Shown here: in pieces, positions 1,387 through 60,863 of the stretch
Position numbering within the stretch: position 1 is the first letter of the stretch
How the letters are laid out: every line of letters starts with the position of its first letter
Assembly: GCF_024807615.1 (NCBI RefSeq)
Contig: NZ_JANUCJ010000002.1
Coordinates: forward strand, 248,001 to 312,000
From: Tsukamurella ocularis
Lineage (GTDB): Bacteria > Actinomycetota > Actinomycetes > Mycobacteriales > Mycobacteriaceae
Direction: 5' to 3'
Length of the DNA: 64,000 bases
Program-made: the position numbers and the translations under genes
Notes under the pieces: generated by a model
Told to the model about the DNA's origin: nothing
Databases searched by the model: none
Seen by the model: only the letters and a program-made list of their open reading frames with translations

Positions 1387-1422
1387 TCCCACCCCCATGT
1401 CCGACCACCGAAAGGCACGACC

Positions 1423-2718: not shown

Positions 2719-2736
2719 TCGGCCTCCCCGCACTGC

Positions 2737-2800
2737 ACCCGGCGCCGGGTGGTTCGTCCACGTCTGCCGCTTCGCAGACGAGGGCAATACCACCCGGCGC
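2737..2800. repeat. nested inverted repeat between two operons
   Basis: The 137-base gap after the StyA-like gene holds a layered dyad. Arms GCGCCGGGTGG (2742-2752) and CCACCCGGCGC (2790-2800) are perfect complements. Between them lies a second perfect 7-bp hairpin, CGTCTGC (2761-2767) and GCAGACG (2774-2780), with a 6-base loop. The left outer arm also sits in a 14-base palindrome (2737-2750). It could act as a terminator for the monooxygenase operon, as an RNA attenuator, or be a REP-like element. It has no U-tract. Confidence 0.6.
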
Positions 2801-2855
2801 GCGGTCGTCACCGCTCTGTGGCCAGTCGGGAAGTCACCATGGCAGACTCTGGCGA

Positions 2856-3734
2856 GTGACAGTGCGCATCGGTCTGGTCGGAGCGGGTCCCTGGGCGCGG
2901 GAAACCCATGCCCCGGCGCTCGCTGCGCACCCGGGTGTCGACTTCGTCGGCGGTTGGGCCCGCGACCCCGGCGCCGCCGCCGAGGTGTTCCCCCGAACCT
3001 TCGACAGCCCCGCCGCGTTGTTCGATGCCGTCGATGCCGTCGCCTTCGCTGTACCGCCGGACGTCCAGGCTCCCCTCGCCGCAGAGGCGGCCCGCGCAGG
3101 CAAGCATCTCGTCCTCGACAAGCCGATCGCATTGGACCTGCCGTCGGCGACGGAACTCGCGGAGACGGTGGCCGCCGCGGATGTCCGGTCGATCGTCGCC
3201 TTCACCCGGCGGTTCGCACCGGAGACCAGAGAGTTCCTCTCTCGCGCCGCCGAGCTGGTCCCCGTGGCTGCCGAAGCACAGTGGCTCTCCGGAGCCGCGC
3301 TCGCCGGGAAGTTCGCGGCCTCCACATGGCGTCAGGAGCAGGGAGCGCTGTTCGACGTAGGGCCGCATGTCCTGGATCTGCTCGACGCTGTCGCCGGCCC
3401 GATCACCGGTGTGGACGCCGCTCGATACGACGCCGGGAGCGACACCTGGACCGCGCAGCTCGCACACGTCGGCGGCGGCGCCTCGACCGTCTCACTGTCG
3501 CTCCGCACGCCGGTGCTCCCGACGGTGATGCGCGTGTCCGCGCATTCCACGCGGGGCACGGCCGTACTCGAGCGCCGCGACACCTCGTCGACCGAGTGCT
3601 TCCGCGTGCTCCTCGACGAGTTCCTCACCGCGATCGCGACTAGCACTGCTCACCCATTGGACGTACGTCGCGGACTCGAGGTGCAGCGCGTCATCGGGCA
3701 GATCCGGGCCGGCGCCGGCCCGACGGCGCAGTGA
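2856..3734 (+). CDS. Gfo/Idh/MocA-family NAD(P)-dependent oxidoreductase
   Basis: This 292-residue protein has the family layout. An N-terminal Rossmann fold carries GLVGAGPWA at residues 6-14. The EKP-type motif appears as DKPIAL near residues 88-93, where the lysine normally contacts nicotinamide and substrate. A C-terminal substrate domain contains the GPHVLDLLDAV segment with the conserved histidine. Members oxidise or reduce sugars, inositols and related polyols. It is somewhat shorter than the usual 330-390 residues. I chose the GTG at 2856; a GTG six bases later is an alternative. The stop overlaps the next start by four bases (GTGA), so it is translationally coupled to the GGDEF-EAL gene, an odd partnership. 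Confidence 0.8.
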   Translation: MTVRIGLVGAGPWARETHAPALAAHPGVDFVGGWARDPGAAAEVFPRTFDSPAALFDAVDAVAFAVPPDVQAPLAAEAARAGKHLVLDKPIALDLPSATELAETVAAADVRSIVAFTRRFAPETREFLSRAAELVPVAAEAQWLSGAALAGKFAASTWRQEQGALFDVGPHVLDLLDAVAGPITGVDAARYDAGSDTWTAQLAHVGGGASTVSLSLRTPVLPTVMRVSAHSTRGTAVLERRDTSSTECFRVLLDEFLTAIATSTAHPLDVRRGLEVQRVIGQIRAGAGPTAQ

Positions 3735-6259: not shown

Positions 6260-6265
6260 CCCTCA

Positions 6266-6295
6266 CGGTCGACGAGTCCGTGTGTCCGTCGACCG
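6266..6295 (+). terminator. hairpin after the GGDEF-EAL gene
   Basis: A perfect 9-bp stem (CGGTCGACG at 6266-6274 and CGTCGACCG at 6287-6295) with a 12-base loop starts seven bases after the stop codon. There is no U-tract, which is common for high-GC actinobacterial terminators. It also lies in the promoter region of the gene at 6312, so an operator role is possible. Confidence 0.5.
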
Positions 6296-6311
6296 GCGCT
6301 ACGCTGGGGGC

Positions 6312-6698
6312 ATGACGCACCCCGGCGACCCCCCGCAGCCCTCGGCCCCCGAGCCCACGCCCACGGACCCGGCCGTCACCGACCCGGCTTCCCCCGCCTC
6401 GGAGCCCATCGAGGCGGAGATCGTCGACCTTCCGCCGAGCGGGCCCGTCGCACCGTCGTACGAGCAGGTCACCGGCTACACCACCGCCGGCGTTCCCACC
6501 TTCGACCACGTGCGGGAGAAGATCGAGCGCCGCACGACCACCGCGCTCGGCGCCGAGGAGCTCGCGCACGGCACCTCCGCCGGGCAGGACGCCGTCCGCG
6601 CCTTCGAGGAGCGGGAAAAGGCGGCGAAGGCGAAGCTTGACGAGATCCGCCGGTCGCTGGGCTCGCCCGCCGCGCCCCCGGAGACCCCGGGGGCGTAG
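6312..6698 (+). CDS. small Pro-rich hypothetical protein
   Basis: I do not recognise this 128-residue protein. The first 55 residues are rich in Pro, Thr, Ser and Glu and look disordered. The C-terminal half is a charged helix (about residues 70-120, many Lys, Glu, Arg and Ala) that could form a coiled coil or bind a partner. A GGGGG stretch precedes the ATG, and TACGCT at 6299-6304 resembles a -10 box, so the transcript may have a very short leader. The gene converges on the TrpB-like gene with a 10-base gap. Confidence 0.7.
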   Translation: MTHPGDPPQPSAPEPTPTDPAVTDPASPASEPIEAEIVDLPPSGPVAPSYEQVTGYTTAGVPTFDHVREKIERRTTTALGAEELAHGTSAGQDAVRAFEEREKAAKAKLDEIRRSLGSPAAPPETPGA

Positions 6699-6708
6699 TT
6701 GAGCGCAG

Positions 6709-8007
6709 TCAGGCCAGGCCGCCCGCGAGGTACTCCGCGTAGGCGGGCAGGTCGAGCTGGCCGTGGCCCGAGAGACCAATGACGAGCACCTCGTCGGAGT
6801 GCTCCCGCGCGTAATCCGCGGCCGCAGCGATCGCATGCGTCGACTCCGGGGCGGGGACGATGCCCTGCGTCCGCGCGAACAGCACGCCCGCGGCGAAGGC
6901 GTCGTTCTGCTCGATCGCGATACCCTCCACGAGGCCCAGCTCCACGGTGTGGCTGAGCGCCGGCGACATCCCGTGATAGCGCAGGCCGCCGGCGTGGATC
7001 GGGTCCGGGACGAAGTCCATCCCCAGGGTGTGCATCTTCAGCAGCGGAGTGAGGCCGGCGACGTCGCCGTGGTCGTAGCGGTACTCGCCCTTCGTGATCG
7101 ACGGGCACGCCACGGGCTCGGCGGCGACGATGCGCGGGTCCTGCCTTCCGTGGATCTTCTCCCGGAGGAACGGGAAGGCGAGGCCCGCGAGGTTGGAACC
7201 GCCTCCGGCGCAGCCGAAGACGACCTCGGCGCCCTTCTCGTGCAGGTTCAGCTGGTCGACGGCCTCGAGCCCGATCACCGACTGGTGCAGCACCACGTGG
7301 TTGAGGACGCTTCCCAGCGCGTACCGGGCGTCGGGATCCTGGGCGGCAACCTCGACGGCCTCCGAGACGGCCATGCCGAGACTGCCAGTGGTGTTCGGAT
7401 CCTTCGCCAGCATCGCGTGGCCGGACTCGGTGAGCTCCGACGGGCTCGGGTGCACAGTGCCGCCGTAGGTGCGCATGAGGTGGCCGCGGTAGGGCTTCGA
7501 GTCGTAGGAGGCGCGCACCTGCCACACCTCGACGTCGATGCCGAACTGGGCACCGGCGAAGGAGAGGGCGCTGCCCCACTGGCCGGCGCCGGTCTCGGTG
7601 GTCAGCTTCGTCACGCCGTCCACCGAGTTGTAGTACGCCTGCGCGACGGCCGAATTCGTCTTGTGCGAGCCGACGGGACTCACGCCCTCGTACTTGACGT
7701 AGATGCGGCACGTGGTGCCGAGCGCCTGCTCGAACTTCCGGGCCCTAATCAGCGGCGACGGGCGCCACATCGCGAGAATCTCGCGGACCGGCTCCGGGAT
7801 CTCGTGGTAGGCCTCGGTGGACGCCTCCTGCGCGATGAGGCCCGACGCGAACAGCGGCGCCAGGTCCTCGGGCTGCACGGGCTCCTTGGTGCCGGGGTGC
7901 AGGTGCGGTGGGATGGGCGTGTCCAGTTCCGCGGCCAGGTTGTACCAGTGGGTGGGGACCTCGACGGTCGTGATGTCCTGGTGCGCGGCGGCGTCCGAGA
8001 GTGTCAT
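6709..8007 (-). CDS. TrpB-like PLP-dependent enzyme (TrpB2 type)
   Basis: The 432-residue protein belongs to the stand-alone tryptophan synthase beta-like group (TrpB2), fold type II PLP enzymes that join indole and serine to give tryptophan, or act on related substrates. The Schiff-base lysine is in GSHKTNSA (Lys116). The phosphate-binding glycine loop appears as GCAGGGSN in the middle of the protein. An N-terminal extension rich in acidic and proline residues is typical of TrpB2 rather than TrpB1. No trpA or other tryptophan gene adjoins it, which fits an accessory rather than a primary tryptophan synthase. The transcript starts divergently from the esterase gene at about 8107. Confidence 0.88.
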   Translation of the reverse strand: MTLSDAAAHQDITTVEVPTHWYNLAAELDTPIPPHLHPGTKEPVQPEDLAPLFASGLIAQEASTEAYHEIPEPVREILAMWRPSPLIRARKFEQALGTTCRIYVKYEGVSPVGSHKTNSAVAQAYYNSVDGVTKLTTETGAGQWGSALSFAGAQFGIDVEVWQVRASYDSKPYRGHLMRTYGGTVHPSPSELTESGHAMLAKDPNTTGSLGMAVSEAVEVAAQDPDARYALGSVLNHVVLHQSVIGLEAVDQLNLHEKGAEVVFGCAGGGSNLAGLAFPFLREKIHGRQDPRIVAAEPVACPSITKGEYRYDHGDVAGLTPLLKMHTLGMDFVPDPIHAGGLRYHGMSPALSHTVELGLVEGIAIEQNDAFAAGVLFARTQGIVPAPESTHAIAAAADYAREHSDEVLVIGLSGHGQLDLPAYAEYLAGGLA

Positions 8008-8106
8008 GGCTCACAGAGTAGAACGCCGGGAATGCCGCCCTTTCCCACAGGTCCGTCTTATCGGGCGCACCTATTCTGGACGCGTGCGAGGACGGGAGTG
8101 CGGCCG

Positions 8107-9351
8107 GTGAATCCCCTGCGGAACCTGCAGCTCACGGCAGGTCCCGTACCGCTCCTCCTGCTCCTCACCGGAGCGGCTGCGCTCGCCGGCCTGATCTCCG
8201 CGACCCGTCGCGGCGGGTCAACGCGCACCGTCCTTGTCTGCGTGGCCGCCGCGCTCGCTGCGACAGCGTTCGTGGACTACCTGGTCGAGTTCGTGTGGAA
8301 GCCCTTCCCTGACCGCCTCGACCCGCTGGTGCTGCTGTGGATCGCCCTCGGTGTGCTGGCCCTGCTGCTCGCCGGGGTGCGGGTGGTCCGGGCACCGTCG
8401 TGGCGGTCCACGGCGCTGAGCACCGCGGCGGTCGGCCTGGTGGTCCTGATGGGCGCCGGCCAGGTGAACTCGCTGTACTCGGCGTACCCGTCGGTGGAGG
8501 ACCTGCTGCCCGTCGACTACCCGGCGACGGTGCCTCGTCCCTCCCCCGGCGCGACCGCCGAGCGCGGCGTGGTCGTGCGGGCGACGGTGCCGCCCACGCG
8601 CTCCCGGTTCGCGGCCCGCCAGGCGCTGGTCTACCTGCCGCCGGCGTACCTGTCCGGTGCGCGCGAGCGGCTGCCGGTGCTCATGCTCCTGCACGGGCAG
8701 CCGGGCTCGCCGCGGGACTGGTTCTCAGGCGGGAAGCTGGCCCGGACGATGGACTCCTATGCGCAGCGGCGGGGCGGCGTCGCGCCCGTCGTGGTGGTGC
8801 CGGACGCGACGGGCGGGCAGTTCGCGAACCCGCTCTGCGCCGACACCCGGCGCGCTCGGGCAGCGACCTATCTCGCCGAGGACGTGCCCGCATGGGTGCG
8901 CCAGAATCTGGCAGTGGATGCTGCCCCGCAGGCGTGGGCGGTCGGCGGCTACTCCTACGGCGGCACCTGCGCGCTGCAGCTGGCGACCCGGTTCCCGGAG
9001 GTCTTCCGGACCTTCCTGGCACTCTCGCCCGACGCGGAGCCGGACTTGGGCGGCGGGCGCGAGGCCACCGTCCGGGACGCCTTCGCCGGCGATCGCGGCG
9101 CGTACGCGCGGGCGGATCCGCTCACCCAGCTGTCGCTGCGGCGCTTCCCCGACAGTGCGGGCGTGCTCGTGGCCGGCACGGAAGACCCCGCGTCGACCGC
9201 AGCCGCGAAGCGGGTGGCCCTCGCCGCCGCGGGAGCCGGAATGACGGTGCGCACCCGATGGATCCGGGGCGGGCACGACTTCACTGTGTGGTCCGGCGGC
9301 CTGACGGCGGAACTCGACTGGCTCGGCGGCCGCCTGGGCCTCCCCACTTAG
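8107..9351 (+). CDS. membrane-anchored alpha/beta-hydrolase (esterase D / mycolyltransferase-like fold)
   Basis: The 414-residue protein begins with about four hydrophobic helices (residues 12-32, 40-62, 72-90 and 98-118). An extracytoplasmic esterase-D-type hydrolase domain follows. The nucleophile elbow is GGYSYGG (Ser283). An Asp in the GTEDP loop and His390 in GGHDF complete a plausible triad. The same architecture and family occur in mycolate-containing actinobacteria near trehalose mycolyltransferase relatives, but the antigen-85 signature is not obvious, so I call only the fold. GTG starts at 8098 and 8107 are both possible; GGGAG at 8094-8098 spaces better for 8107. Confidence 0.75.
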   Translation: MNPLRNLQLTAGPVPLLLLLTGAAALAGLISATRRGGSTRTVLVCVAAALAATAFVDYLVEFVWKPFPDRLDPLVLLWIALGVLALLLAGVRVVRAPSWRSTALSTAAVGLVVLMGAGQVNSLYSAYPSVEDLLPVDYPATVPRPSPGATAERGVVVRATVPPTRSRFAARQALVYLPPAYLSGARERLPVLMLLHGQPGSPRDWFSGGKLARTMDSYAQRRGGVAPVVVVPDATGGQFANPLCADTRRARAATYLAEDVPAWVRQNLAVDAAPQAWAVGGYSYGGTCALQLATRFPEVFRTFLALSPDAEPDLGGGREATVRDAFAGDRGAYARADPLTQLSLRRFPDSAGVLVAGTEDPASTAAAKRVALAAAGAGMTVRTRWIRGGHDFTVWSGGLTAELDWLGGRLGLPT

Positions 9352-9375
9352 CCCGGAACGGGTGGCCCGGAACGA

Positions 9376-10401
9376 CTAGGTGCGCAACAGCGCCCCGGCT
9401 GCGAAGTCGCCGGCGTGCGCGAAGGCCGCGAGGACCACGTCCTCCCCTGCGCCGATCCGCCCGTCCGCGCGGGCGATGGCGAAGGTGTGCGGGACGCCGA
9501 CCGCGAAGAGGTTGCCGCACTCGTCGAAGGTGTCGGGGTGCCGCTCCGGCGGGAGCTCGAGGGCCTCGCGCCAATTACGCAGGAACGTCCGGTTGGGCTG
9601 ATTGGTCACGAGGTGCCCGACGTCGGGGCCGCGCAGGCCTCCCGCAGCCGCGGCGGCGAGCGCGACCTCCGGCACGAGCCGGTTGCCCCGGGCGAGGACC
9701 TTCGCGATCTTGGCCTCGGTGAAGCCCACGTGCAGCTGCCCCTCGCCGGCCTCCCAGTACTTGCGCGGCGGCTCGACGGCGGCGGTCATGTCGCCCGCGT
9801 ACTCGCTGTGCTGCGCGCAGATCACCTCCCGGACCTCCAGCCCACCCGCCTGCGGGTCGGCGACGACGAGCGCGGCGGCGGCACCGTCGCCCGGGATGGC
9901 GGCCTGCGGCAGGTTCCGGACCCGGTCCTGGGTGAAGACGTTCCCGGCCGCGTTGGTCGCGGTGAGCAGCAGCGCCGACCGCGCGGTCCCCGCGGTGAAC
10001 ATCGTGCGCGCGAGCTGCAGCATGAGCAGGAAGGCGGCGCAGCCGCCGTTGTGGATGTCCAGGACCAGCGAGGGCCGGGTGCCGAGCCGGCGCACGACGT
10101 CGCCACCGCAGCCAACGACCGGCAGGTCCGGCAACTGCGAGTGGCTCAGCACCACATCGGCCTGCAGGGCCTCGTCCCCGACCTGCTCCCGGAGCCGGTC
10201 GATCGCCGCGCACATCAGGTCGACGTTCGACTCCCCCGCCGCCGCATGGTGCCGGTACGCGGGCGGCGCGAACATCGGGTTCGAGGTGAGCGTGCGACTG
10301 TCGGCGTCGGCGAACTCCCGGAAGTACTCGGCGGGTACCCGGTTCTCGGGCAGGTACGAGGCCAACCCGACGATCCGCGGGTTCACGAGCGGGGCGGTCA
10401 C
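9376..10401 (-). CDS. beta-ketoacyl-ACP synthase III-like protein with altered catalytic triad
   Basis: This 341-residue thiolase-fold protein resembles FabH/KAS III. The nucleophile is Cys121 in GGCAAF. The position of the catalytic His of FabH (HQAN motif) reads NQPN, so His is replaced by Asn267. The second polar residue, Asn297 in CGNLFAVG, is kept. A Cys-Asn-Asn set argues against ordinary decarboxylative condensation and for acyl transfer or an unusual condensation, as in secondary-metabolite KAS III enzymes. The GTG at 10401 overlaps the stop of the SRPBCC gene by four bases. An ATG at 10413 is possible but gives a long overlap. It is the last gene of a three-gene operon. Confidence 0.8.
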   Translation of the reverse strand: MTAPLVNPRIVGLASYLPENRVPAEYFREFADADSRTLTSNPMFAPPAYRHHAAAGESNVDLMCAAIDRLREQVGDEALQADVVLSHSQLPDLPVVGCGGDVVRRLGTRPSLVLDIHNGGCAAFLLMLQLARTMFTAGTARSALLLTATNAAGNVFTQDRVRNLPQAAIPGDGAAAALVVADPQAGGLEVREVICAQHSEYAGDMTAAVEPPRKYWEAGEGQLHVGFTEAKIAKVLARGNRLVPEVALAAAAAGGLRGPDVGHLVTNQPNRTFLRNWREALELPPERHPDTFDECGNLFAVGVPHTFAIARADGRIGAGEDVVLAAFAHAGDFAAGALLRT

Positions 10402-11030
10402 GACGTCATCCATTCGGGCTTGATCGGCTCCCCGTGCGCATGCCGGTGTTCGGCGATCGCCTTGAGGTTCTCGAGTTCCATCTGGTGGCCCGCTCCGAAC
10501 GTGTCCCACAGGTCGCCGACCCAGACGGGCCGCTCGGGCGGCGCCGTCTCGGGGTACGGGTTCTCGTCGTAGAAGGGGTGGTGGCAGTTGACCCACAGCA
10601 CCACGGAGCCGGGCCTGTTCAGCACGAGCCGCGCATCGACGATCCGCATCAGGTAGATCATCCAGAGATGCTTCCCCTGGTCCCAGGCGCAGTGGTAGTC
10701 GACGGTCCGCGCGTCCGGGTGGGCGACGGTGCGCGTGTAGATCTCGGTGTCGGCGCCGAGCATGTCGCGCGCGACCCACAGGCCGGCCTCGTCGGTCTCG
10801 CGGAAGCCGCGCAGGCTGTAGGTCCACTCCTCGAGGGAGCGGGTGTCGGAGAGCCAGTCGTAGAGATCGTCGGGCGGGGCGTTGACGTAGGACTGCACGG
10901 GGCAGAAGTCGCCGTAGATCTGCTGGTGCGGGTACACCGAGCGCATGCGGTCGACGAGGATCGGCTGCGCCACCGGGCGCGGGTGACTCTCGATCCGGAT
11001 GGTTCCTTCGATGTCGATGACGGGGATCAT
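10398..11030 (-). CDS. SRPBCC-type (START-like) protein, putative cyclase or ligand-binding partner
   Basis: The 210-residue protein looks like the SRPBCC helix-grip fold (START/polyketide cyclase superfamily), judged from its length and the WTYSLRGF and WDQGKHLWM segments. Members bind hydrophobic ligands and some cyclise or aromatise polyketides. The sequence has many aromatic and histidine residues in its second half. Four-base overlaps on both sides (ATGA with the ThDP enzyme, GTGA with the KAS III gene) make co-translation very likely, so its substrate is probably the product of those two enzymes. I cannot assign a specific reaction. Confidence 0.7.
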   Translation of the reverse strand: MIPVIDIEGTIRIESHPRPVAQPILVDRMRSVYPHQQIYGDFCPVQSYVNAPPDDLYDWLSDTRSLEEWTYSLRGFRETDEAGLWVARDMLGADTEIYTRTVAHPDARTVDYHCAWDQGKHLWMIYLMRIVDARLVLNRPGSVVLWVNCHHPFYDENPYPETAPPERPVWVGDLWDTFGAGHQMELENLKAIAEHRHAHGEPIKPEWMTS

Positions 11031-12682
11031 TGCCGCTCCTTCGCGGTATCGGGCAGCAGCGCTGCGAACGGCGGGATCTCCGCAGGGTCGGTCCCGATCT
11101 CCAGGCACGACGGTCCGCCGCCGGACCCGGTCAGGAGCTCGGCCGCGGCGGACCGCACACCGTCGGGCGTGGTGGCCGAGCGGACGGGCAGGGTGGGGAA
11201 CATGGCGGCCAGGCCGTCAGCGATCCGGCTGGGCCGGAACCGGTTGATGCTGGGCAGGTCGGGGAAGAACTTCCCCTCGCGGGCCACGCACATACCGTGA
11301 GCGTCGTTGTTGAGCACCACCAGTAGGACGGACGCCCGCGCCTCGATCGCGGTGTGGATCTCCATGCCGTGCATGAAGAATGCACCGTCACCGGCGAGGA
11401 TCACGGTGGGCCGGCCGGTGGCTATCGCGGCGCCGATCCCCGCGGCGATGCCGTGCCCCATGCCGCCCATACCTAGTGCGACGAGGAAGCGGTCGCCGGT
11501 GCCGAGCGGGAGGCGGTGCACCGCGGCGGCACCGGCGTTGCCGGCATCGGCGAAGACGAGTGCGTCAGCGGGGATCGCGGCGGCCATCGCGTCGACGGCA
11601 TCGGCGCAGGTGAGCAACCCGGAGTCGTTCCGCGGCACGGTGATCGGGACGGGCGCCGCGGCGGTCCACGGGACGCGCGCGCGTGCGCCGACCGCGTCCG
11701 CGAGGGCCCTCGCGTAGGCGGCGAGGTCGCGGGCGGGCTCGTGGACCGTCACGTCGCGCAGCGGCGGCTCGGCGGCGACGTGCACCGTGCAGGTGACGTC
11801 CATCGCGTCGTCCAGCCCGGTGCGGTCCATGAGGTCGAGCTCGGTGCCCAGCGCCAGGATGAGGTCCGCGTCGGCGGCGACCCGTGGCACCGAGGGATGC
11901 CCCATGACGCCCGCGACGCCCACGACGCCGGTCCGGGGCGCGGCGTCGCGCCCGTTGGGGCCGACCGCGATCACGGCGCCCGTCGCCGCCGCCAGCGCCG
12001 CGACGGGTCCGGCGAGCCGGGCCCGGGACGCGGCCTCGCCGAGCAGGATCAAGGGCCTCCGTGCCGCGCGGACGAGCCGCACCACCTCCTGCGACGGTGC
12101 CTCCGGCCCGGGTGGGATCGGTGCGCGCCCCGCCGGTCCGGGACAGTCGGCGAGCTGGACGTCCTTGGGCAGGAGCAGCGCTGCGGGCAGCCCCTGCTCG
12201 ATCGCCGCAAAGGCACCTTCGAGCGCGGGGGCGAGATCCTCCGGCACGGAAACCTTCGCGGCGAAGCCGGTCACGCCACGCAGGACGGCGAGGACGTCGA
12301 CGGTGCGCGGGGCCGCGCACATGTCCTGGAAGGCGCCGCGCCCCTCGGCGGCGGTCGGCGGACTCCCGATGAGTGCGAGGACGGGCGAACGGGACTGGTA
12401 CGCCTCGGCCAGGGCTGGGACGCAATTCATCGCCGCGCCGCCGGAGGTGGCGATCAAGCAGCCTGGCCGGCCGGTCATGCGCGCCGCTCCGTCCGCCATG
12501 GCGCCGGCGCCGAACTCGTGCTTGGCAATGGTCACCGTGAGGCGGCGGTCCTCGGGGGCGCGAAGCAGTGCGGCGAACAGGTCCTCGGAATTGGCCCCGT
12601 GAATGCCGTATGCGTGGCGAAACCCATACGCATACAAAGCATTTGCAATCCTGTCAGCGACCTTTGACGTCACAAGCCTCAC
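11027..12682 (-). CDS. thiamine diphosphate-dependent enzyme (acetolactate synthase/decarboxylase family)
   Basis: The 551-residue protein has the three-domain ThDP layout. The N-terminal PYR domain carries the activating glutamate in KHEFG (Glu56). A central Rossmann-like domain follows. The C-terminal PP domain has the Mg-ThDP motif from GDG (about residue 432) to NN. Family members decarboxylate 2-oxo acids and transfer the aldehyde unit; the exact donor and acceptor are unknown. The HGANSEDLF start is unlike housekeeping acetolactate synthase, and no small regulatory subunit is present. GTG starts at 12682 and 12673 are candidates. It heads the operon with the SRPBCC and KAS III genes, and a perfect CRP-type palindrome lies just upstream. 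Confidence 0.85.
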   Translation of the reverse strand: MRLVTSKVADRIANALYAYGFRHAYGIHGANSEDLFAALLRAPEDRRLTVTIAKHEFGAGAMADGAARMTGRPGCLIATSGGAAMNCVPALAEAYQSRSPVLALIGSPPTAAEGRGAFQDMCAAPRTVDVLAVLRGVTGFAAKVSVPEDLAPALEGAFAAIEQGLPAALLLPKDVQLADCPGPAGRAPIPPGPEAPSQEVVRLVRAARRPLILLGEAASRARLAGPVAALAAATGAVIAVGPNGRDAAPRTGVVGVAGVMGHPSVPRVAADADLILALGTELDLMDRTGLDDAMDVTCTVHVAAEPPLRDVTVHEPARDLAAYARALADAVGARARVPWTAAAPVPITVPRNDSGLLTCADAVDAMAAAIPADALVFADAGNAGAAAVHRLPLGTGDRFLVALGMGGMGHGIAAGIGAAIATGRPTVILAGDGAFFMHGMEIHTAIEARASVLLVVLNNDAHGMCVAREGKFFPDLPSINRFRPSRIADGLAAMFPTLPVRSATTPDGVRSAAAELLTGSGGGPSCLEIGTDPAEIPPFAALLPDTAKERQ

Positions 12683-12692
12683 AGTAGGCCGG

Positions 12693-12708
12693 TGTGACCG
12701 GCTTCACA
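12693..12708. promoter_or_regulatory. CRP/GlxR-type binding site
   Basis: TGTGACCGGCTTCACA fits the consensus TGTGA-N6-TCACA exactly. It is centred about 18 bases upstream of the ThDP gene start. A second overlapping dyad (GCCGGT-GTG-ACCGGC, 12688-12702) shares its centre region. This close to the start a cAMP-CRP-family regulator would more likely repress than activate, unless the true start is further downstream. The match is seen; binding is inferred. Confidence 0.6.
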
Positions 12709-12741
12709 ACAGAGCAGGCGAACGCTGTCCGCTTATCCCTG

Positions 12742-13200
12742 CTACCCGAGCAGGTTGCGCGCGAACGCCTCGGCGCCTGCAAGATCCGCCGCGCTCGGGC
12801 GACCCTTGTTCATACCTCCGACCAGCGCGAACGGCCCCATCGTGTCGAGCCCGCGGCAGTGGAAGACCTCGGGCGCGAGCCGGAATCCGGCGTCGGTGAG
12901 GAGATTCGCGAGCGTACGGGTGTACCGGCGCAGCGGCGTCTCGGGCAGTCCGCTGGTGGCGTAGACGAAGGCCGTCCCGCGCGGCTTCGCGGCGAGGCCG
13001 CGGACGAGGCCGACGAGGGCCGGGTCGAAGGCCATCCAGTACACGCCCGAGCCGAAACCGACCAGGTCGGCGGCGTCGATCTGATCCGCCGTCACCTCCC
13101 CGGGGGTGAGCACCGGCGCGTTCAGGACCCCGCCGATCCGATCGGCCACCTTCCGGGTGTTGCCGTGGTGCTTGGACGCGCAGATCACGAGTGCCGACAT
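12742..13200 (-). CDS. flavodoxin-family protein
   Basis: The 152-residue protein has the flavodoxin fold. The FMN phosphate-binding loop is near the N-terminus (CASKHHGNTRKVA, residues 8-20). The middle VGFGSGVYW segment resembles the first isoalloxazine loop, and YATSGLPE resembles the second. Such proteins carry electrons or act as small FMN oxidoreductases. It lies 60 bases upstream of the ThDP gene on the same strand, but the intervening dyads suggest separate control. It could still supply electrons to that pathway. Confidence 0.8.
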   Translation of the reverse strand: MSALVICASKHHGNTRKVADRIGGVLNAPVLTPGEVTADQIDAADLVGFGSGVYWMAFDPALVGLVRGLAAKPRGTAFVYATSGLPETPLRRYTRTLANLLTDAGFRLAPEVFHCRGLDTMGPFALVGGMNKGRPSAADLAGAEAFARNLLG

Positions 13201-13227
13201 GATCCCATCGTGGCACGGATCAGCAGG

Positions 13228-13686
13228 TCACGCTCCGGACCAGCGGTCCACGTCGGCCTGCGTGACCTCGACCGGGGCCTGCTTCCGCTGGGTGATCCGG
13301 ATGTGGTTGCCGAACGGGTCTCGCAGCGCGCAGTCGATGCCGTAGGGCTGCTCCTGCGGCTCCTCCGTGAACTCGACGCCCTGCGCGCTCAGCTTCTCGA
13401 AGACACCGCGGCAGTCGTCGGTGTTGAGGATGCAGGCCACACCGAGCGCGCCCTTGGTGAGCAGATCCCGTTGCGCGGCGACGGTCTCCGGGCTCCCGCC
13501 TCCCACGCCCAGGACCTCCAGTACCAGTTCGCGCTGGGGGTCGGACGGCAGGGCGATGGTGAGCCAGCGCATGAAGCCCATATCGACGTCGTCGTGGACT
13601 TCGAAGCCCAACTTGCCGACGTAGAAGTCGAGGGCCTCGTCCTGGTCGAGAACGAAGACGGACGTGATAGCGATCGAAGTGAACAT
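13228..13686 (-). CDS. VOC-superfamily (glyoxalase/bleomycin-resistance fold) protein
   Basis: The 152-residue protein is a single VOC module with two beta-alpha-beta-beta-beta repeats. An N-terminal VLDQDEALDFYVGKLGFEV segment and a C-terminal RDPFGNHIRI segment carry the usual metal-ligand region. VOC proteins include glyoxalases, dioxygenases and antibiotic-binding proteins, and the substrate cannot be told. It follows the AraC-type gene by 48 bases on the same strand. This regulator-plus-VOC pair is common in actinobacteria and suggests the neighbour controls it. Confidence 0.85.
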   Translation of the reverse strand: MFTSIAITSVFVLDQDEALDFYVGKLGFEVHDDVDMGFMRWLTIALPSDPQRELVLEVLGVGGGSPETVAAQRDLLTKGALGVACILNTDDCRGVFEKLSAQGVEFTEEPQEQPYGIDCALRDPFGNHIRITQRKQAPVEVTQADVDRWSGA

Positions 13687-53248: not shown

Positions 53249-54271
53249 CTACGACGAGGCGGGCAGGGCGATCCCGAGCTCACGGAACACCGCGCGGGCG
53301 CGGTCCGGATAGTCGGTGATCAGCCCGTCCGCGCCGTCCCGCAGCAGCGTCCGCATCGTCGCGGGATCGTTGACCGTCCACGGGATGACCTTCAGGCCCA
53401 GGTCGTGCGCGCGCCGGATCAGCGGAGCCGTCGTGAAGCGCACGAACTCCGCGTCGCCGACGCCGCCGTCCTGCGGGTCGCCCTGCACCGGCGAGATCGC
53501 GGTGAGTCCGGGGATGGTTGCCTTCGCCGCCCGCACCCAGTCGCCGCCGTAGCCGTCCACGTCCAGCCCCAGCCACGGAGACGCACCCGGCTTCCCCGTC
53601 TGCAGGAACTGCTCGCCGTTGGTCAGCGCGATCAGCCCGACGCCCGGGAGTAGCGGCCCGATCTCCCGTAGAGCGGTCCAGTCGAAGCTCTGGATCGTGA
53701 CCTGCCGGGCGAGGCCGGAGCGCGTGATCTCCCCCGCCACCGCGCGCACGAACTCGCCGCGCGGCGCCGTCTCCGACGGTGTGCCCGCCTCCACCTTGGT
53801 CTCGATGTTCATCCGCACGGGCGAGCGACGCGCGCGGACGAGGTCGAAGAGCTCGCGCAGCTCGGGGATGCGGGCTCCCGCCACCACGCGCTGCGAGGCG
53901 GTGACCTTCTCGTATCCGCAGTTCATAGTGCGGACCTGGGCGTAGGTCAGGTCGCGGACGTACTTGCCAACGTACGGGTACTGCGGGTCCCCGGGCGTCG
54001 CCGGCGCGGTGTCGGCACACTTCTTCGAGTCCACCTTCCGGTCGTGGGTGATCACGACCTTCCGGTCCTTCGTCACCTGCGTGTCCAGTTCCAGCGTCGT
54101 GACGCCGAGCCGCATCGCCGCGGAGAAGCCCTCCAGCGTGGACTCGGTCTGCAGGCCGAGCCCGCCCCGGTGCGCCTGCAGGTCGACGGTCCGCGGCGCC
54201 GCTCCGGCAGGAGCCGCTCCCACCAGCAACGCGAAGAACAGAGCGATGATCGACAGACGCCGCAGGTTCAT
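53249..54271 (-). CDS. secreted glycerophosphodiester phosphodiesterase
   Basis: The 340-residue protein has a signal peptide (to about residue 25, AGAAP). A GDPD TIM-barrel follows with the catalytic HRGG, ELDTQVTKDRKVVITHD and IETKVE motifs. These supply the two histidines and the metal-binding Glu and Asp. It should cleave glycerophosphodiesters outside the membrane to feed glycerol-3-phosphate uptake. ATG at 54271 preferred over an upstream GTG. Confidence 0.92.
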   Translation of the reverse strand: MNLRRLSIIALFFALLVGAAPAGAAPRTVDLQAHRGGLGLQTESTLEGFSAAMRLGVTTLELDTQVTKDRKVVITHDRKVDSKKCADTAPATPGDPQYPYVGKYVRDLTYAQVRTMNCGYEKVTASQRVVAGARIPELRELFDLVRARRSPVRMNIETKVEAGTPSETAPRGEFVRAVAGEITRSGLARQVTIQSFDWTALREIGPLLPGVGLIALTNGEQFLQTGKPGASPWLGLDVDGYGGDWVRAAKATIPGLTAISPVQGDPQDGGVGDAEFVRFTTAPLIRRAHDLGLKVIPWTVNDPATMRTLLRDGADGLITDYPDRARAVFRELGIALPASS

Positions 54272-54369
54272 GAACCGCACGCTAGGCCGCCACGGTGAAC
54301 CCGACCTGTCCGCGACGTGAAGGGCTCCCCGATACACTGGACCGTCGCATACGCAAGGGGAGGTACACG

Positions 54370-55875
54370 ATGGCGCAGTCGGCCGCGCAGCTGTACGCCG
54401 CGTTCACGGATAACGCCGACAACGACGTCGCGCTCCGCCTACTCCGCTCCCCCAACGCCGTCGCCTACCTGGCCCTCATGGCGGCGAGGCTGGGCACGGG
54501 CCCCGCCGACGCGGAGGAGCTGGGCGACGCGCTGACCGTCGACCTGCAGTCCCTCCAGAGCCACTTCACCGAGCGCGCGCGGCCGGTCCCCGCCGGGCCC
54601 GACGTCCTGGACCAGTGGGTCAAGCACGGCTTCGTATCGAGAACCCTCGATGAGGACGACCGCGAGGTCATCCAGCTCACCCGCGGCGCGACGACGGCCC
54701 TCGGCCAGGTGCAGGCCGTCTCGCTGGACCGCAACGTCGCCACCGAGACCGCGCTCGAGCTGGTCACGGCCCGACTGTCGGCGGTGGCGGTCACCGTCAG
54801 CGCCGATCCCGACGACCACCTCCGCGCCCTGGACCAGCAGATCGCCGAGCTCACCCAGCGACGCGAGGCCCTGCGCCAGGGCCTCATCCCCGAGTACGAC
54901 CGCGACAAGGTGGTCGACGACCTCAAGATCGTCAGCTCCCTCGCCGAGCGCATGCCCGCAGATATCCTGGGCTACGGCGAGAAGCTCCGCGAACACACGC
55001 GCGCCCTCCTCACCCACGGCCTCGACGCCTCCGACTCCAGCGAGGCCGAGGCCTACGCCAAGACCCTGCAGCGCCTCTTCGACGGCCACGACGAGCTCGC
55101 GAACACACCCGAGGGCAAGGCCTTCGACGCCTTCTACACGCTGCTCTCCGACCACCGCCTGCGCCGCCAGCTCGAGACGTCCGTCGCCTCCGTCGTGCAT
55201 GAGGTGGAGCTGCCGGACGACCTCAGAGACTCCCTCACCGGCTTCCTCGATCGCATGTGGATGCAGGTCCAGCGGGTCGACGAGATCCGCGGCCAGGTCT
55301 ATCGCCGCATCAACACCTTCGTCAAGGACGGCGACTTCCTGCAGTACCAGTCGCTGCGCGCCCGCATCACCGAGGCGCAGCGCGCGGCCGTCGACGCCTT
55401 CGACATCGTCTCCGCCGGCCGCGACACCGGCCTCGCCGTCCCCATGTCGGCCGTCGACACCAGCTCCGTCGGCGCCCTGCGCTTCCACGACGGCGTCGTC
55501 ACCCTGCCGCCCGAGGTGCGCGAGACCTCCGGCGAGTTCACCATCGACCCCGCGCGCCTCGTCGGCCGCGAGGCGATCGACTGGGACGCGCTCGCCTCCG
55601 CCGTCAACCAAGCCGTCAGCACGTCCGACGGTGCGACCCTCCTCGAGGTTCTCGCCGCGATCGACGCTCCCCGAGCCGGCGACGTCGTCGGCGTCTGGTC
55701 GCTCGGCGCGCGGTACGGCACCGTCGACGAGGACCGCCTGGTCACCGTCGTCGCGCACACCCAGCGCGGGCCCCGCGAGATGACGGTGCCGCACGTCGCC
55801 TTCGCCGCCGCGCTCCCGCCCCTGACCCCCGCCTCGGCCGCGCCCGAGCCCACCACGCTGTTCGAGCAGGAGTGA
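54370..55875 (+). CDS. jetA: JetA/MksF-type kleisin (DUF3375)
   Basis: The 501-residue protein is the kleisin of Wadjet/MksBEF SMC complexes (DUF3375). The N-terminal winged-helix region, a long coiled-coil (with LDQQIAELTQRREALRQG) and a C-terminal winged helix are consistent. In Wadjet it links the JetC ATPase heads and holds JetB. GGGGAGG (54357-54363) supports the ATG, and TACACT at 54333-54338 looks like a -10 box. It is followed after one base by jetB. Confidence 0.87.
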   Translation: MAQSAAQLYAAFTDNADNDVALRLLRSPNAVAYLALMAARLGTGPADAEELGDALTVDLQSLQSHFTERARPVPAGPDVLDQWVKHGFVSRTLDEDDREVIQLTRGATTALGQVQAVSLDRNVATETALELVTARLSAVAVTVSADPDDHLRALDQQIAELTQRREALRQGLIPEYDRDKVVDDLKIVSSLAERMPADILGYGEKLREHTRALLTHGLDASDSSEAEAYAKTLQRLFDGHDELANTPEGKAFDAFYTLLSDHRLRRQLETSVASVVHEVELPDDLRDSLTGFLDRMWMQVQRVDEIRGQVYRRINTFVKDGDFLQYQSLRARITEAQRAAVDAFDIVSAGRDTGLAVPMSAVDTSSVGALRFHDGVVTLPPEVRETSGEFTIDPARLVGREAIDWDALASAVNQAVSTSDGATLLEVLAAIDAPRAGDVVGVWSLGARYGTVDEDRLVTVVAHTQRGPREMTVPHVAFAAALPPLTPASAAPEPTTLFEQE

Positions 55876-55876
55876 C

Positions 55877-56671
55877 ATGACCGACGAATCGCTCGACGCC
55901 GCACTGGACATCGCGGACGACGTGCTCCCCGAGATCGACCTCGCCGACTTCAGCATCGCCGACGACGAGGCGATCACGTCGCTGCGCGGCGCCGACACCG
56001 CGCCCCGCTTCGACGGCGACACCTCCGCGCTGCCGAACTCGGTCTGTTACGCGCTGCAGGAGCTGATCGCGGCGCCGCACGTCTCGTCGCGGTCGAAGAA
56101 CTGGGCCGTGATCGAGGCCGAGGAGACGCTGCTGCGCAGCCGGCTCTCCGAGCTGAACCTGCTGCTCGAGATCAACCGCGAGACCAAGCACGCCTTCACC
56201 CGGCAGGTCAGCGAGAACGACCCGCGCCAGCGGAATCTGCTGCGCGCGCAGAGCCTCTCGCTCGCCGCGTCGGTGCTGGCGCTGTTCCTGCGCCTCAAGC
56301 ACCTGTCCAGCCCGGACGAGACGGCGGTCGTGGAGCGGCAGGAGATGATCGACCATCTGTTGACGTTCCGCCCCGCGCGCGACACCGACGAGGCCGGCTT
56401 CGTCAAGAAGGCCGACGCCGCGATCAACCAGCTCGAGACCCGCCGCCTGATCCGCCGCGTCGGCACCAGCGACCGGTACGCCGTGCACTCGGTGATCGCC
56501 TCGCTGCTCACCCCCGAGCAGGTGGACCTGTACACCGCCGCGTACCGCGACCTCGCCAGTACCGATCAGGACCTGGGCGAGGCGGCGGCCCCCGTCGACG
56601 ACGGCGAGGACGGCACCGTCGAGCCGGAGAACGACACCGAGCCCGAGAACGAGACGCAGGAGCAGCAGTGA
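55877..56671 (+). CDS. jetB: JetB/MksE-type KITE subunit (DUF4194)
   Basis: The 264-residue protein is the DUF4194 KITE-type subunit. The helical region around residues 55-215 has the typical WAVIEAEETLLRSRLSELNLLLEI and LLRAQSLSLAASVLALFLRL segments. An acidic C-terminal tail, rich in Asp and Glu, is an unusual extension. It bridges JetA in the complex. The stop overlaps the jetC start by four bases. Confidence 0.87.
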   Translation: MTDESLDAALDIADDVLPEIDLADFSIADDEAITSLRGADTAPRFDGDTSALPNSVCYALQELIAAPHVSSRSKNWAVIEAEETLLRSRLSELNLLLEINRETKHAFTRQVSENDPRQRNLLRAQSLSLAASVLALFLRLKHLSSPDETAVVERQEMIDHLLTFRPARDTDEAGFVKKADAAINQLETRRLIRRVGTSDRYAVHSVIASLLTPEQVDLYTAAYRDLASTDQDLGEAAAPVDDGEDGTVEPENDTEPENETQEQQ

Positions 56672-59600
56672 CCCGCAAGCATCTCGGCCAGTACCGCCTC
56701 ACCCGCCTGCAGGTGGTCAACTGGGGCACCTTCGACGGCTACAAGGACTTCCCGATCGACGAGCGGGGCGTGATCCTCACCGGCCCGTCAGGCTCGGGCA
56801 AGAGCTCGCTGATGGACGCGCATTCGGTGGTGCTGCTGCCCACCTACGACCAGTCCTTCAACGCCTCCGCGGACATGACGGCGAAGGGCGCCAAGCGCGC
56901 CGCCCGCTCGATGGCGGACTACGTGCGCGGTGCGTGGTCGGTCAACGACGACGAGCACCAGCAGTCCAAGGTCCAGTACCTGCGCGGCGACTCGGCCACC
57001 TGGTCGGCGGTCGCCGCGACCTACGACAACGGCGCGGGCAACGTGACCACGGCCGTCGCCGTGAAGTGGTTCCCCGGCAGCGGCACCGACGGCGCCTCGC
57101 TCAAGTCCTGGTACCAGTTGCATTCGGGCGGCTTCGATCTGCTGGACCTGCAGGAATGGGCCACCGCCGGCTTCGACACCCGCGGCTGGCGCTCTCGGCA
57201 CAGCGGCGTCGAATCCTTCGACACGCAGGCCGCCTACCAGGACGCGCTGCGCCGCCGTGTCGGCATCGGCACTTCCAGCGCCGCGCTGGCGCTGCTGGGC
57301 AAGGCCAAGGCCATGAAGAACGTCGGCGACCTCGACGCCTTCATCCGGACCTACATGCTCGACCGGCCGCAGACCTACGCGCGCGCCGAACGCCTCGTCG
57401 AGAACTTCACCCAGCTCGACGAGGCCTACCGGGCCGCCGCGCGCGCCGAGGCGCAGGAGAAGGTCCTGCGGCCGATGCCGGAGGCGTACGAGAAGTACCG
57501 CTCCGCCACCGTCGGGACGACGCGCGCGGCCGACCTGCTCGGCGCACCCGTGCGGTCCTACCTGCGCGGGCACAAGCTGCGACTGCTGCAGGAGCAGATG
57601 GACCGGATCGAGGGCGAGCGGGCCGGCACCGACGCGCAGATCGCCCGCTGGGAGGACCGCGCCGAGGAGCGCAAGATCCGCTACAACGACCTGCTGCACC
57701 GGCTCCGGCAGGAGCAGGGCGAGGTCGGGGTGCTCGAGGCGGAGCTCCAGTCGCGCGAGCTGCAGACCCAGGCCCGCCAGCGCGCCTACGAGCGCTTCGC
57801 CGCCGCGGTGGAGAAGCTCGGCGAGCGCGCGCCCGAGTCGGCGGAGGAGTTCGCCGCGCTGCGCGAGCAGGTCCCCGGCATCCGCGACCGCGCGACCGAG
57901 GCCGCCGAGGCCCTCGCGGGGCGCGTGCACTCCGCGTACACCGACGAGTCGGACGCGCGCCGGGCCGTCGAATCCGTGGACGACGAGCTGTCCGTGCTGG
58001 ACCGCCGCGCCTCGCTGCTGCCGCCCGCGCTGCTGGACCAGCGCGACGTGATCGCCCGCGCCACCGGCGTTCCCGCGGAGGAGCTTCCGTACGCGGCGGA
58101 GCTCATCGACGTCACGCCCGCGGAGCAGGCGACGTGGGCCGGCGCCGCCGAGCGCGTGCTGCGTCCGCTGGCCACGACGCTGTTGGTCCCCGCCGAGCAC
58201 CAGCGCGCGGTCGCCGACTACGTGAACGCCAACCGCGTGCAGGGCGTGCTCACGTACCAGGTGGTCGACGGTGCCGACCCCACCCGCCCGGAGCCCGGGT
58301 CCCTGGCCGCCAAGCTGACGGTCGACACCTCGACCGAGGCCGGACGGTGGCTGGCCGGCGCGGTGGCGCGCGCCGCGCGACACACCTGCGTGGACTCCCC
58401 CGCCGAGCTGGAGAAGCACGAGCAGGCCGTCACCGCCGAGGGCTTGGTCAAGGGCGCGGGCGGCCGGTTCCGCAAGGACGACCGTCGCGCCGTCGCGGAC
58501 CGCTCGCAGTGGGTGCTGGGCACCAACACCGGCAGTAAGCGCGAGGCACTGCAGCGCCGCCGCGACGAATTGGCCGCTGTGCACGCCAAGGCCGCCGAGG
58601 CGTCCGCGACGCTGCGCGACGACCTCGCCGAGCACAAGGCCGTCACCGACAGCGCCGCCGGCGTGCTGGGCTACACGTCCTGGGCTGAGCTCGACCACTG
58701 GGCGGCGAAGGCCGAGGCCGAGGAACTGGCCGACCGGATCTCCGACGCCCGCTCCGGCAACGCCGATCTCGGGGAGCTGGAGCTGCAGGCCGACAACGCC
58801 TACGGCGAACTGGCCGAAGCGCAGACCCGCATCGGCGCCCTCACCGAGACGATGAACCGCGCCGGCACCGAGTTCGACGACCTGCTGGCCGAATTCGAGA
58901 AGATCGACGCCGAGAGCGCCCCGAAGCTGACGAGTGAAGACGAGGACTTCCTCGCGACCGCCCTGTGGCACCTGCTCACCGCCGACGAGGCGAAACCCCG
59001 GCGGCTCACCCTCGACTCCTTCGGCGAGGTCCGCGCCGACCTCCGCGCCGAGCTGGAGCGCCAGCAGGCCGCGGCGACGGCCGATCGGGATGCCGCCGAG
59101 GCGCGGATCGTCCGCACCGCCGAGCAGTTCCTCCGCGAGTGGCCCGACGCCTCGACAGAACTCACCTCCGATGTCTCTTCGGCGCCTGACCTCGTCGCGG
59201 TGCACGAGAACCTCGTCGCGCACGGCCTCGCCGCCGCCACCGAGAAGTTCCGTCGGCTCATCACGACCGACGTCAGCCACTCGGTGTCGAACCTGTTCAA
59301 GGAAGTCGACGACACGCACCGGGCCATCACTCGCGGCATCGCCGACGTCAACGCTGGCCTGCGCCGGGTGGAGTTCAACGAGGGCACCTACCTGCAGATC
59401 GCCTACGCCGCCCGGCCCACGCCGGAGGCCACGGAGTTCGCGACGTTGGTCGACGAGATGGTGCGCGACGCACCTGCCGCGAAGCGCGCCGAGCCGGCGG
59501 CGATGGCCGCACAGTTCAAGCGGATCCGCGGGCTTGTGCTGCGCCTCACCGGCGACGACCCCGAGTCGCGCCGCTGGACGGAGAACGTCCTCGACGTGCG

Positions 59601-60030
59601 CACCGGCTACTCCTTCTACGGCAAGGAGAACGCGGTCGGCGCCGAGCCGGACGCACCCGCGGTGGTCACCTACCGCAACACCGCCACCAACTCCGGCGGC
59701 GAGCAGGAGAAGCTGGTCGCGTTCTGCCTCGCGGCGGCGCTCAGCTTCGCCCTGGGCAGCCACGGGATCGACGGCTCGAACGAACCCGCGTTCGCCCCGC
59801 TCATGCTAGACGAGGCGTTCAGCAAGTCCGACGAGCGCTTCTCCGCACAGTCGCTCCGAGCGTTCGAGCAGTTCGGCTTCCAGCTCCTGATCGCGGCCCC
59901 GATCCGGATGGTCGGCATCGTCGAGCCCTTCATCGGGCAGGTGATCCTCGTGGACAAGCAGGTCACGCCCGACGGTGCCCGCTCGGACGCCCGGTACGCC
60001 ACCTTCGGCGAGCTCGCCCCGGCCCGCTGA
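56668..60030 (+). CDS. jetC: JetC/MksB-type SMC-like ATPase
   Basis: The 1120-residue protein is the SMC/MukB-like ATPase of Wadjet/MksBEF. The Walker A motif is GPSGSGKSS (Lys45), followed by long coiled-coil arms with a hinge near the middle. The C-terminal head carries the ABC signature SGGEQ (from residue 1009) and Walker B MLDEA (Asp1048, Glu1049). All catalytic residues are intact, so it should hydrolyse ATP and extrude DNA loops. No JetD-type gene follows; a strong hairpin lies after its stop. Confidence 0.93.
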   Translation: MTRKHLGQYRLTRLQVVNWGTFDGYKDFPIDERGVILTGPSGSGKSSLMDAHSVVLLPTYDQSFNASADMTAKGAKRAARSMADYVRGAWSVNDDEHQQSKVQYLRGDSATWSAVAATYDNGAGNVTTAVAVKWFPGSGTDGASLKSWYQLHSGGFDLLDLQEWATAGFDTRGWRSRHSGVESFDTQAAYQDALRRRVGIGTSSAALALLGKAKAMKNVGDLDAFIRTYMLDRPQTYARAERLVENFTQLDEAYRAAARAEAQEKVLRPMPEAYEKYRSATVGTTRAADLLGAPVRSYLRGHKLRLLQEQMDRIEGERAGTDAQIARWEDRAEERKIRYNDLLHRLRQEQGEVGVLEAELQSRELQTQARQRAYERFAAAVEKLGERAPESAEEFAALREQVPGIRDRATEAAEALAGRVHSAYTDESDARRAVESVDDELSVLDRRASLLPPALLDQRDVIARATGVPAEELPYAAELIDVTPAEQATWAGAAERVLRPLATTLLVPAEHQRAVADYVNANRVQGVLTYQVVDGADPTRPEPGSLAAKLTVDTSTEAGRWLAGAVARAARHTCVDSPAELEKHEQAVTAEGLVKGAGGRFRKDDRRAVADRSQWVLGTNTGSKREALQRRRDELAAVHAKAAEASATLRDDLAEHKAVTDSAAGVLGYTSWAELDHWAAKAEAEELADRISDARSGNADLGELELQADNAYGELAEAQTRIGALTETMNRAGTEFDDLLAEFEKIDAESAPKLTSEDEDFLATALWHLLTADEAKPRRLTLDSFGEVRADLRAELERQQAAATADRDAAEARIVRTAEQFLREWPDASTELTSDVSSAPDLVAVHENLVAHGLAAATEKFRRLITTDVSHSVSNLFKEVDDTHRAITRGIADVNAGLRRVEFNEGTYLQIAYAARPTPEATEFATLVDEMVRDAPAAKRAEPAAMAAQFKRIRGLVLRLTGDDPESRRWTENVLDVRTGYSFYGKENAVGAEPDAPAVVTYRNTATNSGGEQEKLVAFCLAAALSFALGSHGIDGSNEPAFAPLMLDEAFSKSDERFSAQSLRAFEQFGFQLLIAAPIRMVGIVEPFIGQVILVDKQVTPDGARSDARYATFGELAPAR

Positions 60031-60086: not shown

Positions 60087-60863
60087 ATGGCCTCGGTCGT
60101 CGCGCTCAACGCCCACCCGGACGACGAGACGCTGCTCGCGGGCGGCACGCTGGCCCGCTTCGCGGCGGAGGGGCACCGGGTGGTGATCGTCGTCGCCACC
60201 GACGGGATGATGCACGGCGACGACGAGCCCGAGCCCCGACGACGGCTCGACGAGTTGTCCGCAGCGGCCGCGGAACTGGGCGTCCACGAGGTGCGTTGGC
60301 TGGGCTACGCGGACAGCGGCCACGGCGGGGAGCTGTACCCCGACCCACCCGGCCGGGTGCGGCTCGTCCGTGCGGGCGTGGACGAGCCGGCCGAGCGGCT
60401 CGCGGTGATCCTGCGCGAGGTCTCCGCCGACCTGCTGCTCGGCTCCGACGAGGCCGGCGGCTACCGGCACCGCGACCACCTCGCCGTGCACCACATCGCG
60501 CGCCGCGCAGCGGAACTCACCGGCGTTCGGCTCGCCGAGGCGACAGCGCCGCGCGAGTCGATCCTGCGCATCCTGGCGATCGCGGTGCGTCTCCGGTTCC
60601 TGCAACCCGGACACCTCGAGCAGGCGCGCACCTGGTTCACGCCGGGGGCGCAGATCACGCACCGCGTCGACGTGCGCCGACACGTCGCTGCCAAGCAGCG
60701 CGCGCTCGCCGCCCACCGGTCGGAGATCGCGAAGTCGGGGACCGTCGCACGGATCCTCCGGATGGTGCTGCGCCTGCCCGCATGGGTCCTCGCGCCGCTG
60801 GTCGGCACCGAGTACTACGTGGAGCCTTCCGGCCCCAGCACCCCGGCAGACCGGCTGCTCTGA
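60087..60863 (+). CDS. PIG-L-family deacetylase
   Basis: The 258-residue zinc deacetylase has the signature AHPDDE (residues 9-14) and the zinc-binding HRDHLAVHH (residues 128-136). The family removes N-acetyl groups from amino sugars in mycothiol-type and glycolipid pathways. The C-terminal tail includes a hydrophobic stretch (residues 226-243) that may contact the membrane. It has its own -10 box, so it is probably independent of jetABC. Confidence 0.87.
   Translation: MASVVALNAHPDDETLLAGGTLARFAAEGHRVVIVVATDGMMHGDDEPEPRRRLDELSAAAAELGVHEVRWLGYADSGHGGELYPDPPGRVRLVRAGVDEPAERLAVILREVSADLLLGSDEAGGYRHRDHLAVHHIARRAAELTGVRLAEATAPRESILRILAIAVRLRFLQPGHLEQARTWFTPGAQITHRVDVRRHVAAKQRALAAHRSEIAKSGTVARILRMVLRLPAWVLAPLVGTEYYVEPSGPSTPADRLL

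Follow-up and report, generated by a model that had tools for sequence, protein, structure and literature searches.

The Tsukamurella ocularis locus at positions 54370-60030 of the analysed window, a stretch of 64,000 nucleotides to which coordinates refer unless another locus is named, carries intact jetA, jetB and jetC genes of the type I Wadjet family, and their usual companion JetD is undetected both in the host genome and in 15 further Tsukamurella genomes. That jetABC is intact without a detectable JetD suggests a function that the motor performs by itself. From sequence comparison we hypothesize, with confidence that stands at about even, that the three genes encode a self-sufficient type I Wadjet core without JetD, most likely a condensin that organises DNA, comparable to MksBEF of Pseudomonas aeruginosa.

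The jetABC locus of T. ocularis

The first gene, jetA (54370..55875, + strand), encodes an MksF-like kleisin of 501 residues with a DUF3375 domain (PF11855, 322.6 bits), which matches the PADLOC JetA1 model PDLC00465 over residues 1-501 with 1013 bits and the type I JetA structure 8dk1_A in the PDB over residues 101-329 (E 1.3e-9). The second, jetB (55877..56671, + strand), encodes an MksE-like KITE protein of 264 residues from the DUF4194 family (PF13835, 108.2 bits; PF21980 MksE, 28.6 bits); residues 18-241 match the PADLOC JetB1 model PDLC00472 with 274 bits, and a comparison with PDB sequences gave no match at E 0.01. The N-terminus of this protein (window 55877-56000) is acidic and probably disordered, and contains a short recurring motif. 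The third, jetC (56668..60030, + strand, GTG start), encodes an MksB-like SMC ATPase of 1120 residues (PF13555, 80.4 bits; PF13558, 73.0 bits) that matches the PADLOC JetC1 model PDLC00518 over residues 5-1112 with 1073 bits and the type I JetC structure 8dk2_C with E 7.1e-56. Its Walker A (GPSGSGKSS), signature (SGGEQ) and Walker B (LMLDEAF) motifs are all present. The original prediction, that the three genes are intact, in normal order and furnished with the ATPase residues of JetC, is thus borne out by the Pfam and PADLOC type I matches to all three proteins and by these motifs; its further statement that the genes overlap holds for jetB and jetC, which share 4 bases, but not for jetA and jetB, since the jetA stop codon (55873-55875) and the jetB ATG at 55877 are one base apart.

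Upstream lies a divergent glycerophosphodiester phosphodiesterase gene (53249..54337, − strand; PF03009, 125.7 bits), which we regard as a flank outside the system. Downstream, a PIG-L deacetylase gene (60087..60863, + strand; PF02585, 83.6 bits) begins 57 bases past the jetC stop and occupies the position expected of jetD, without being a conserved partner. These are the flanks that had been described, and neither is JetD-like. The locus therefore shows the type I Wadjet JetA (DUF3375), JetB (DUF4194) and JetC (SMC ATPase with its motifs), no JetD (DUF3322 plus DUF2220) is encoded alongside them, and the gene content is that of an MksBEF-type system, namely kleisin, KITE protein and SMC without MksG/JetD.

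JetD in the genome, the genus and the family

Searches of the host genome (4,306,542 bases in 9 contigs, completeness 100) with PF09983 at E 0.001 and PF11795 at E 1 returned 0 matches, and the PADLOC JetD1 model PDLC00530 gave none at E 1; over the 16 Tsukamurella genomes, the best score with PDLC00530 was only E 0.155. When the Pfam profiles were run on 14 control genomes, PF09983 rose over its cut-off in one, C. glutamicum, and PF11795 had matches in four, one of them over cut-off. The claim that no JetD is found at the locus is upheld at the scale of the whole genome, and the accompanying suggestion that JetD might be encoded elsewhere in it loses ground by the same three profiles. JetA is present in all 16 Tsukamurella genomes and JetD_C in 0/16. 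Among 301 genomes of the family, 130 have a JetA match and 59 a JetD_C match, and none of the 59 genomes with a JetD match among these 301 belongs to the Williamsia-kin genera g7, g11, g13, g17 and g19.

Phylogeny of the JetD-less loci

We took 100 loci from the family, leaving out genome G203 and fragmentary JetA matches, and classed them by means of a JetD profile built on 22 JetD frames of the family itself, of which some had incorrect ends. Trees were inferred by fast searches, with branch support from SH-aLRT and not from bootstrapping. In the 99-row JetC tree, one clade (clade 1) unites 15 Tsukamurella with 20 Williamsia-kin sequences, and 0/35 of its loci have an adjacent jetD; a second clade of 30 rows from g9, g30 and g31 (clade 2) is likewise made up of loci with no adjacent jetD, which we call solo loci. 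A class-wide search, with a match at E 1e-20 in 24 of 394 genomes, added five genomes of g97, which is in another family; their five loci hold close relatives, and both jetD and an AlkZ-like gene are missing there. When four g97 rows were included (the fifth locus, L212, has its jetC in two frames and was excluded from the trees), g97 joined the Tsukamurella clade in the JetC tree with a support of 98. The JetA tree recovers the same clade, g97 included, with a support of 97, and places clade 2 apart from it. Since the T. ocularis locus lies in both trees within a clade wholly without adjacent jetD, it is not a recent deletion, a possibility that the original prediction had raised; the comparison of neighbourhoods across related genera found jetD consistently missing from the locus.

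The jetD-bearing genome G245 is the sister of clade 2 in the JetC tree, and the JetA tree does not settle the order of the two (support 43). A JetC topology in which the 37 solo rows of the superclade were united without G245 was rejected with a p-AU of 1.2e-79, a value to be read with the group having been chosen post hoc from the tree and G245 being a long branch. As one common solo clade is rejected, JetD would have been lost on two or more occasions in this part of the tree, unless a single loss was followed by a regain in the G245 line. The 99-row JetC tree implies 6 changes of jetD label, counted with L156 wrongly taken as jetD-less, a label put right by hand in the JetC tree that includes g97.

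We also observed smaller groups of solo JetABC inside JetD-bearing branches (L146-L149, L150, L151, L178, L099 and L113, from g9, g4 and g23); it seems that JetD has been lost repeatedly. At one locus (L163 of genome G176, positions 1381-13537), a JetABCD set with jetC in two frames stands in tandem, on one strand, with a JetD-less JetABC of a different branch, and another (L162, G229:C2) is of the JetABCD type with jetD present.

Conservation and selection

Over 13 of the 16 Tsukamurella species (G009, G010 and G011 were left out), median dN/dS was 0.072 for JetC, 0.125 for JetA and 0.161 for JetB; the medians of five neighbouring genes ranged from 0.141 to 0.317, and that of PIG-L was 0.250. 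These low ratios indicate that jetABC is under purifying selection and that the locus is not decaying. The Walker A pattern is found in 34 of the 35 clade-1 rows, the exception being the frame-broken JetC of G009, a single Tsukamurella assembly of completeness 83 (1/16) that also has a stop in JetA. Among the five g97 loci, one (L212) has jetC split over two frames.

The surroundings are less constant. Downstream genes are common to 15/16 Tsukamurella loci, and the sixteenth stops at a contig edge; upstream of jetA there is a GDPD or DUF218 gene in 11/16, another gene in 4/16 and a cut in 1/16. Solo cores occupy different sites in different genera, and the clade-2 core is patchy within g9, where it is present by tree in 17 of the 29 genomes that have an AlkZ match and, by JetA score only, in G203.

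Neighbouring genes and candidate partners

By gene call, PIG-L directly follows jetC in just 8/16 Tsukamurella loci, and it was rejected as a partner on that ground. In 5/16 an AraC-type gene on the opposite strand comes first, in 2/16 another gene and in 1/16 the contig edge. Five of the 16 Tsukamurella loci (L083, L086, L087, L088 and L092) have AraC-type regulator, cyclase-family and AMP-ligase genes between jetC and PIG-L. We saw no same-strand neighbour gene common to all five g97 loci. At 18 of 28 clade-2 loci the gene called after jetC has the opposite orientation, and the 28 genes called there, by a program that missed some genes, fall into 21 families. Open frames were listed for 14 loci, the codon-based caller having missed genes in several downstream gaps, and of the proteins from these frames 10 were run against Pfam and 10 against PADLOC. 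A SIR2/ThsA-like gene lies downstream of the clade-2 solo locus L122, and McrBC-like genes lie downstream of the g4 solo locus L150. Downstream of another clade-2 solo jetC is a Mutator-family transposase gene (L100:11261-12565). No linked partner is conserved across the solo loci. The idea of a different nuclease or non-canonical effector in place of JetD is thus not supported: the AlkZ-like gene next to jetC in Williamsia-kin, discussed below, has long been adjacent to this site, and among the remaining solo loci we found no linked gene in common.

The N-terminal motif of JetB reads, counted by eye, DLADF in 14/16 Tsukamurella and DLSHF in 20/20 Williamsia-kin best hits. The motif IFDR, which contacts JetD in one studied system according to the available part of a review (PMC10586767), is absent from the 101 best JetB hits, among which are JetD-bearing loci (at least one, L079, out of frame); being missing with or without JetD, it provides no test here. 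In g97, 2/5 genomes have a JetD elsewhere, and because each of these adjoins its own JetB and JetC, the two core proteins looked for there, we rejected the borrowing of JetD in trans.

Carriage on plasmids or phages was rejected as well. Only 15 of 72,556 plasmid records matched JetC, 14 of them at less than 60% identity. The close match is the "plasmid 2" of Tsukamurella tyrosinosolvens (NZ_LR134444.1; L220), on which we found trpA, trpB and a cut jetA, and which looks like a piece of chromosome. JetA had one weak hit among phages.

Function of the JetD-less core

If the core is a condensin, it would work in the manner of Wadjet and MukBEF: dimers of JetC, linked through the kleisin JetA and through JetB, would be loaded onto DNA and use ATP hydrolysis to drive loop extrusion. 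No JetD would be triggered when a small circle has been extruded to completion, and the known route to cleavage is missing; DNA would then be compacted or organised and not cut, and the most likely role would be that of an additional condensin of the MksBEF kind, operating next to SMC-ScpAB. We infer the extrusion of loops, this condensin role and the absence of a nuclease partner; ScpA, by which alone the SMC complex was judged, is present in the host genome. ATP-driven loop extrusion has been proposed for the family in the part of the review available (PMC10586767), where P. aeruginosa MksBEF is said to have probably derived from JetABCD through the loss of JetD, and the available text of another paper has SMC and MksBEF both functioning in chromosome segregation in that species (PMC7485682). 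The condensin reading follows this precedent, and it also draws on JetD being undetected in 16 Tsukamurella genomes, on the JetD-less clade, on purifying selection, on the Walker A pattern of clade 1, on fixation in 16/16 genomes and on the presence of ScpA. Against it stand the variable sites, the differing upstream genes, the defence-type genes at L122 and L150 and the patchiness of clade 2 in g9. The JetD-bearing MksBEFG of C. glutamicum has no part in chromosome organisation, as described in the accessible portions of two papers (PMC7083940; PMC10123090), so that the nearest studied relative is no chromosome condensin. In the literature that we searched, whose coverage leaves out preprints and most subscription papers, there was no paper on chromosome organisation in this clade.

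A broader view is that, in actinobacteria, the Wadjet motor has parted from its nuclease on several occasions and keeps circular DNA in check either without cutting or by way of an unlinked effector; we hold this to be rather doubtful. Its version without cutting, in which JetABC would measure and fully extrude small circles and suppress them through compaction, silencing or mis-segregation, we consider unlikely. The JetABC sequences do fall inside type I Wadjet by PADLOC and PDB comparison, the trio is found at several chromosomal sites, two solo loci of other clades (L122 and L150) adjoin the defence-type genes named above, and Smc5/6 has been proposed to act in this manner on viral circles, as given in the available part of the review (PMC10586767). 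However, deletion of the MksG nuclease in C. glutamicum raises plasmid copy number just as deletion of MksB or MksF does (PMC10123090, in its accessible part), which argues that the core alone is insufficient there, and presence in 16/16 species is in our judgement unusual for a defence system. The alternative version, in which JetABC would bring in a nuclease, or some other enzyme, from an unlinked gene, appears quite improbable. The JetB N-terminal motif (DLADF/DLSHF) recurs where IFDR contacts JetD in the one studied system, but IFDR is itself no feature of the JetD-bearing loci among our best hits, no candidate effector was found by the neighbourhood and JetD searches, JetD is undetected in the host and across the 16 Tsukamurella genomes, and the JetDs of g97 keep to their own JetB and JetC.

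That an AlkZ-type DNA glycosylase, or a winged-helix DNA binder, replaced JetD as effector in Williamsia-kin is very improbable, and we rejected it. An AlkZ-like gene does follow jetC on the same strand in 20/20 Williamsia-kin loci, it starts 0-40 bases after the jetC end in the 12 called at full length, and four tested proteins score 240-274 bits with PF06224. However, 29 g9 genomes have an AlkZ match at E 1e-30 or better, with best hits 45-61% identical, and in 12/12 of the g9 loci examined, four of them in genomes with no JetA match, the order is sodA, msrA, alkZ, with alkZ directly after msrA and no jetABC (msrA and sodA were checked on L107; the neighbours SppA and GDT1 were named from sequence). 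Moreover, msrA is still upstream of jetA in 6/20 Williamsia-kin loci, and there is no AlkZ orthologue at E 1e-30 in the 16 Tsukamurella genomes and no AlkZ-like gene at the g97 loci; the host genome has three full-length AlkZ-like genes elsewhere, none of them close to that of Williamsia-kin at E 1e-30. The difference is due either to an insertion of jetABC next to alkZ in Williamsia-kin or to a clean deletion of jetABC in g9, and because msrA and alkZ are paired in g9 without jetABC, the adjacency of jetC and alkZ is no evidence of function. Least credible of all is a relict, in which a Wadjet locus recently stripped of its nuclease is in decay. The broken genes of G009 and L212 would speak for it (1/16 Tsukamurella and 1/5 g97); against it are the dN/dS values of 0.07-0.16 across 13 species and the old JetD-less clade.

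Comparison with known systems

Accounts of Wadjet present a motor that measures DNA and is armed with a nuclease. Cores that are kept by selection without the nuclease make the motor's own activity directly testable, and they bear on how SMC complexes shift between chromosome upkeep and defence; a JetABC match alone is no evidence of an anti-plasmid system. The JetD-less state itself is already known in principle from P. aeruginosa MksBEF, as treated in the available part of the review (PMC10586767). What is new, as far as the literature searched extends, is a type I core that lacks JetD and has become fixed in a genus, together with several separate solo groups; our search, which did not cover preprints and most subscription papers, returned no paper on a Tsukamurella Wadjet or on cores lacking JetD or MksG.

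The locus has the gene order, the JetA, JetB and JetC families and the ATPase motifs of type I Wadjet JetABCD/MksBEFG, as represented by C. glutamicum, E. coli GF4-3, P. aeruginosa PA14 and EptABCD of M. smegmatis, and its JetA and JetC match solved type I proteins; it differs in that JetD is undetected, both beside jetABC and genome-wide. In C. glutamicum, by the accessible part of the report, JetD (MksG) is required for plasmid control (PMC10123090), whereas the Tsukamurella locus is without it. The clade-2 solo JetABC of g9, g30 and g31 belongs to the same superclade and likewise has no adjacent jetD in 30 rows, but it stands apart from the Tsukamurella clade in both the JetC and JetA trees, has a relative with jetD (G245) and is patchy in g9. 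P. aeruginosa MksBEF, to which we liken the locus by gene content, likewise combines SMC, kleisin and KITE protein, lacks JetD and coexists with a separate SMC complex, which for T. ocularis is represented by ScpA alone; the Tsukamurella locus scores as PADLOC type I, and its role as a condensin is a prediction.
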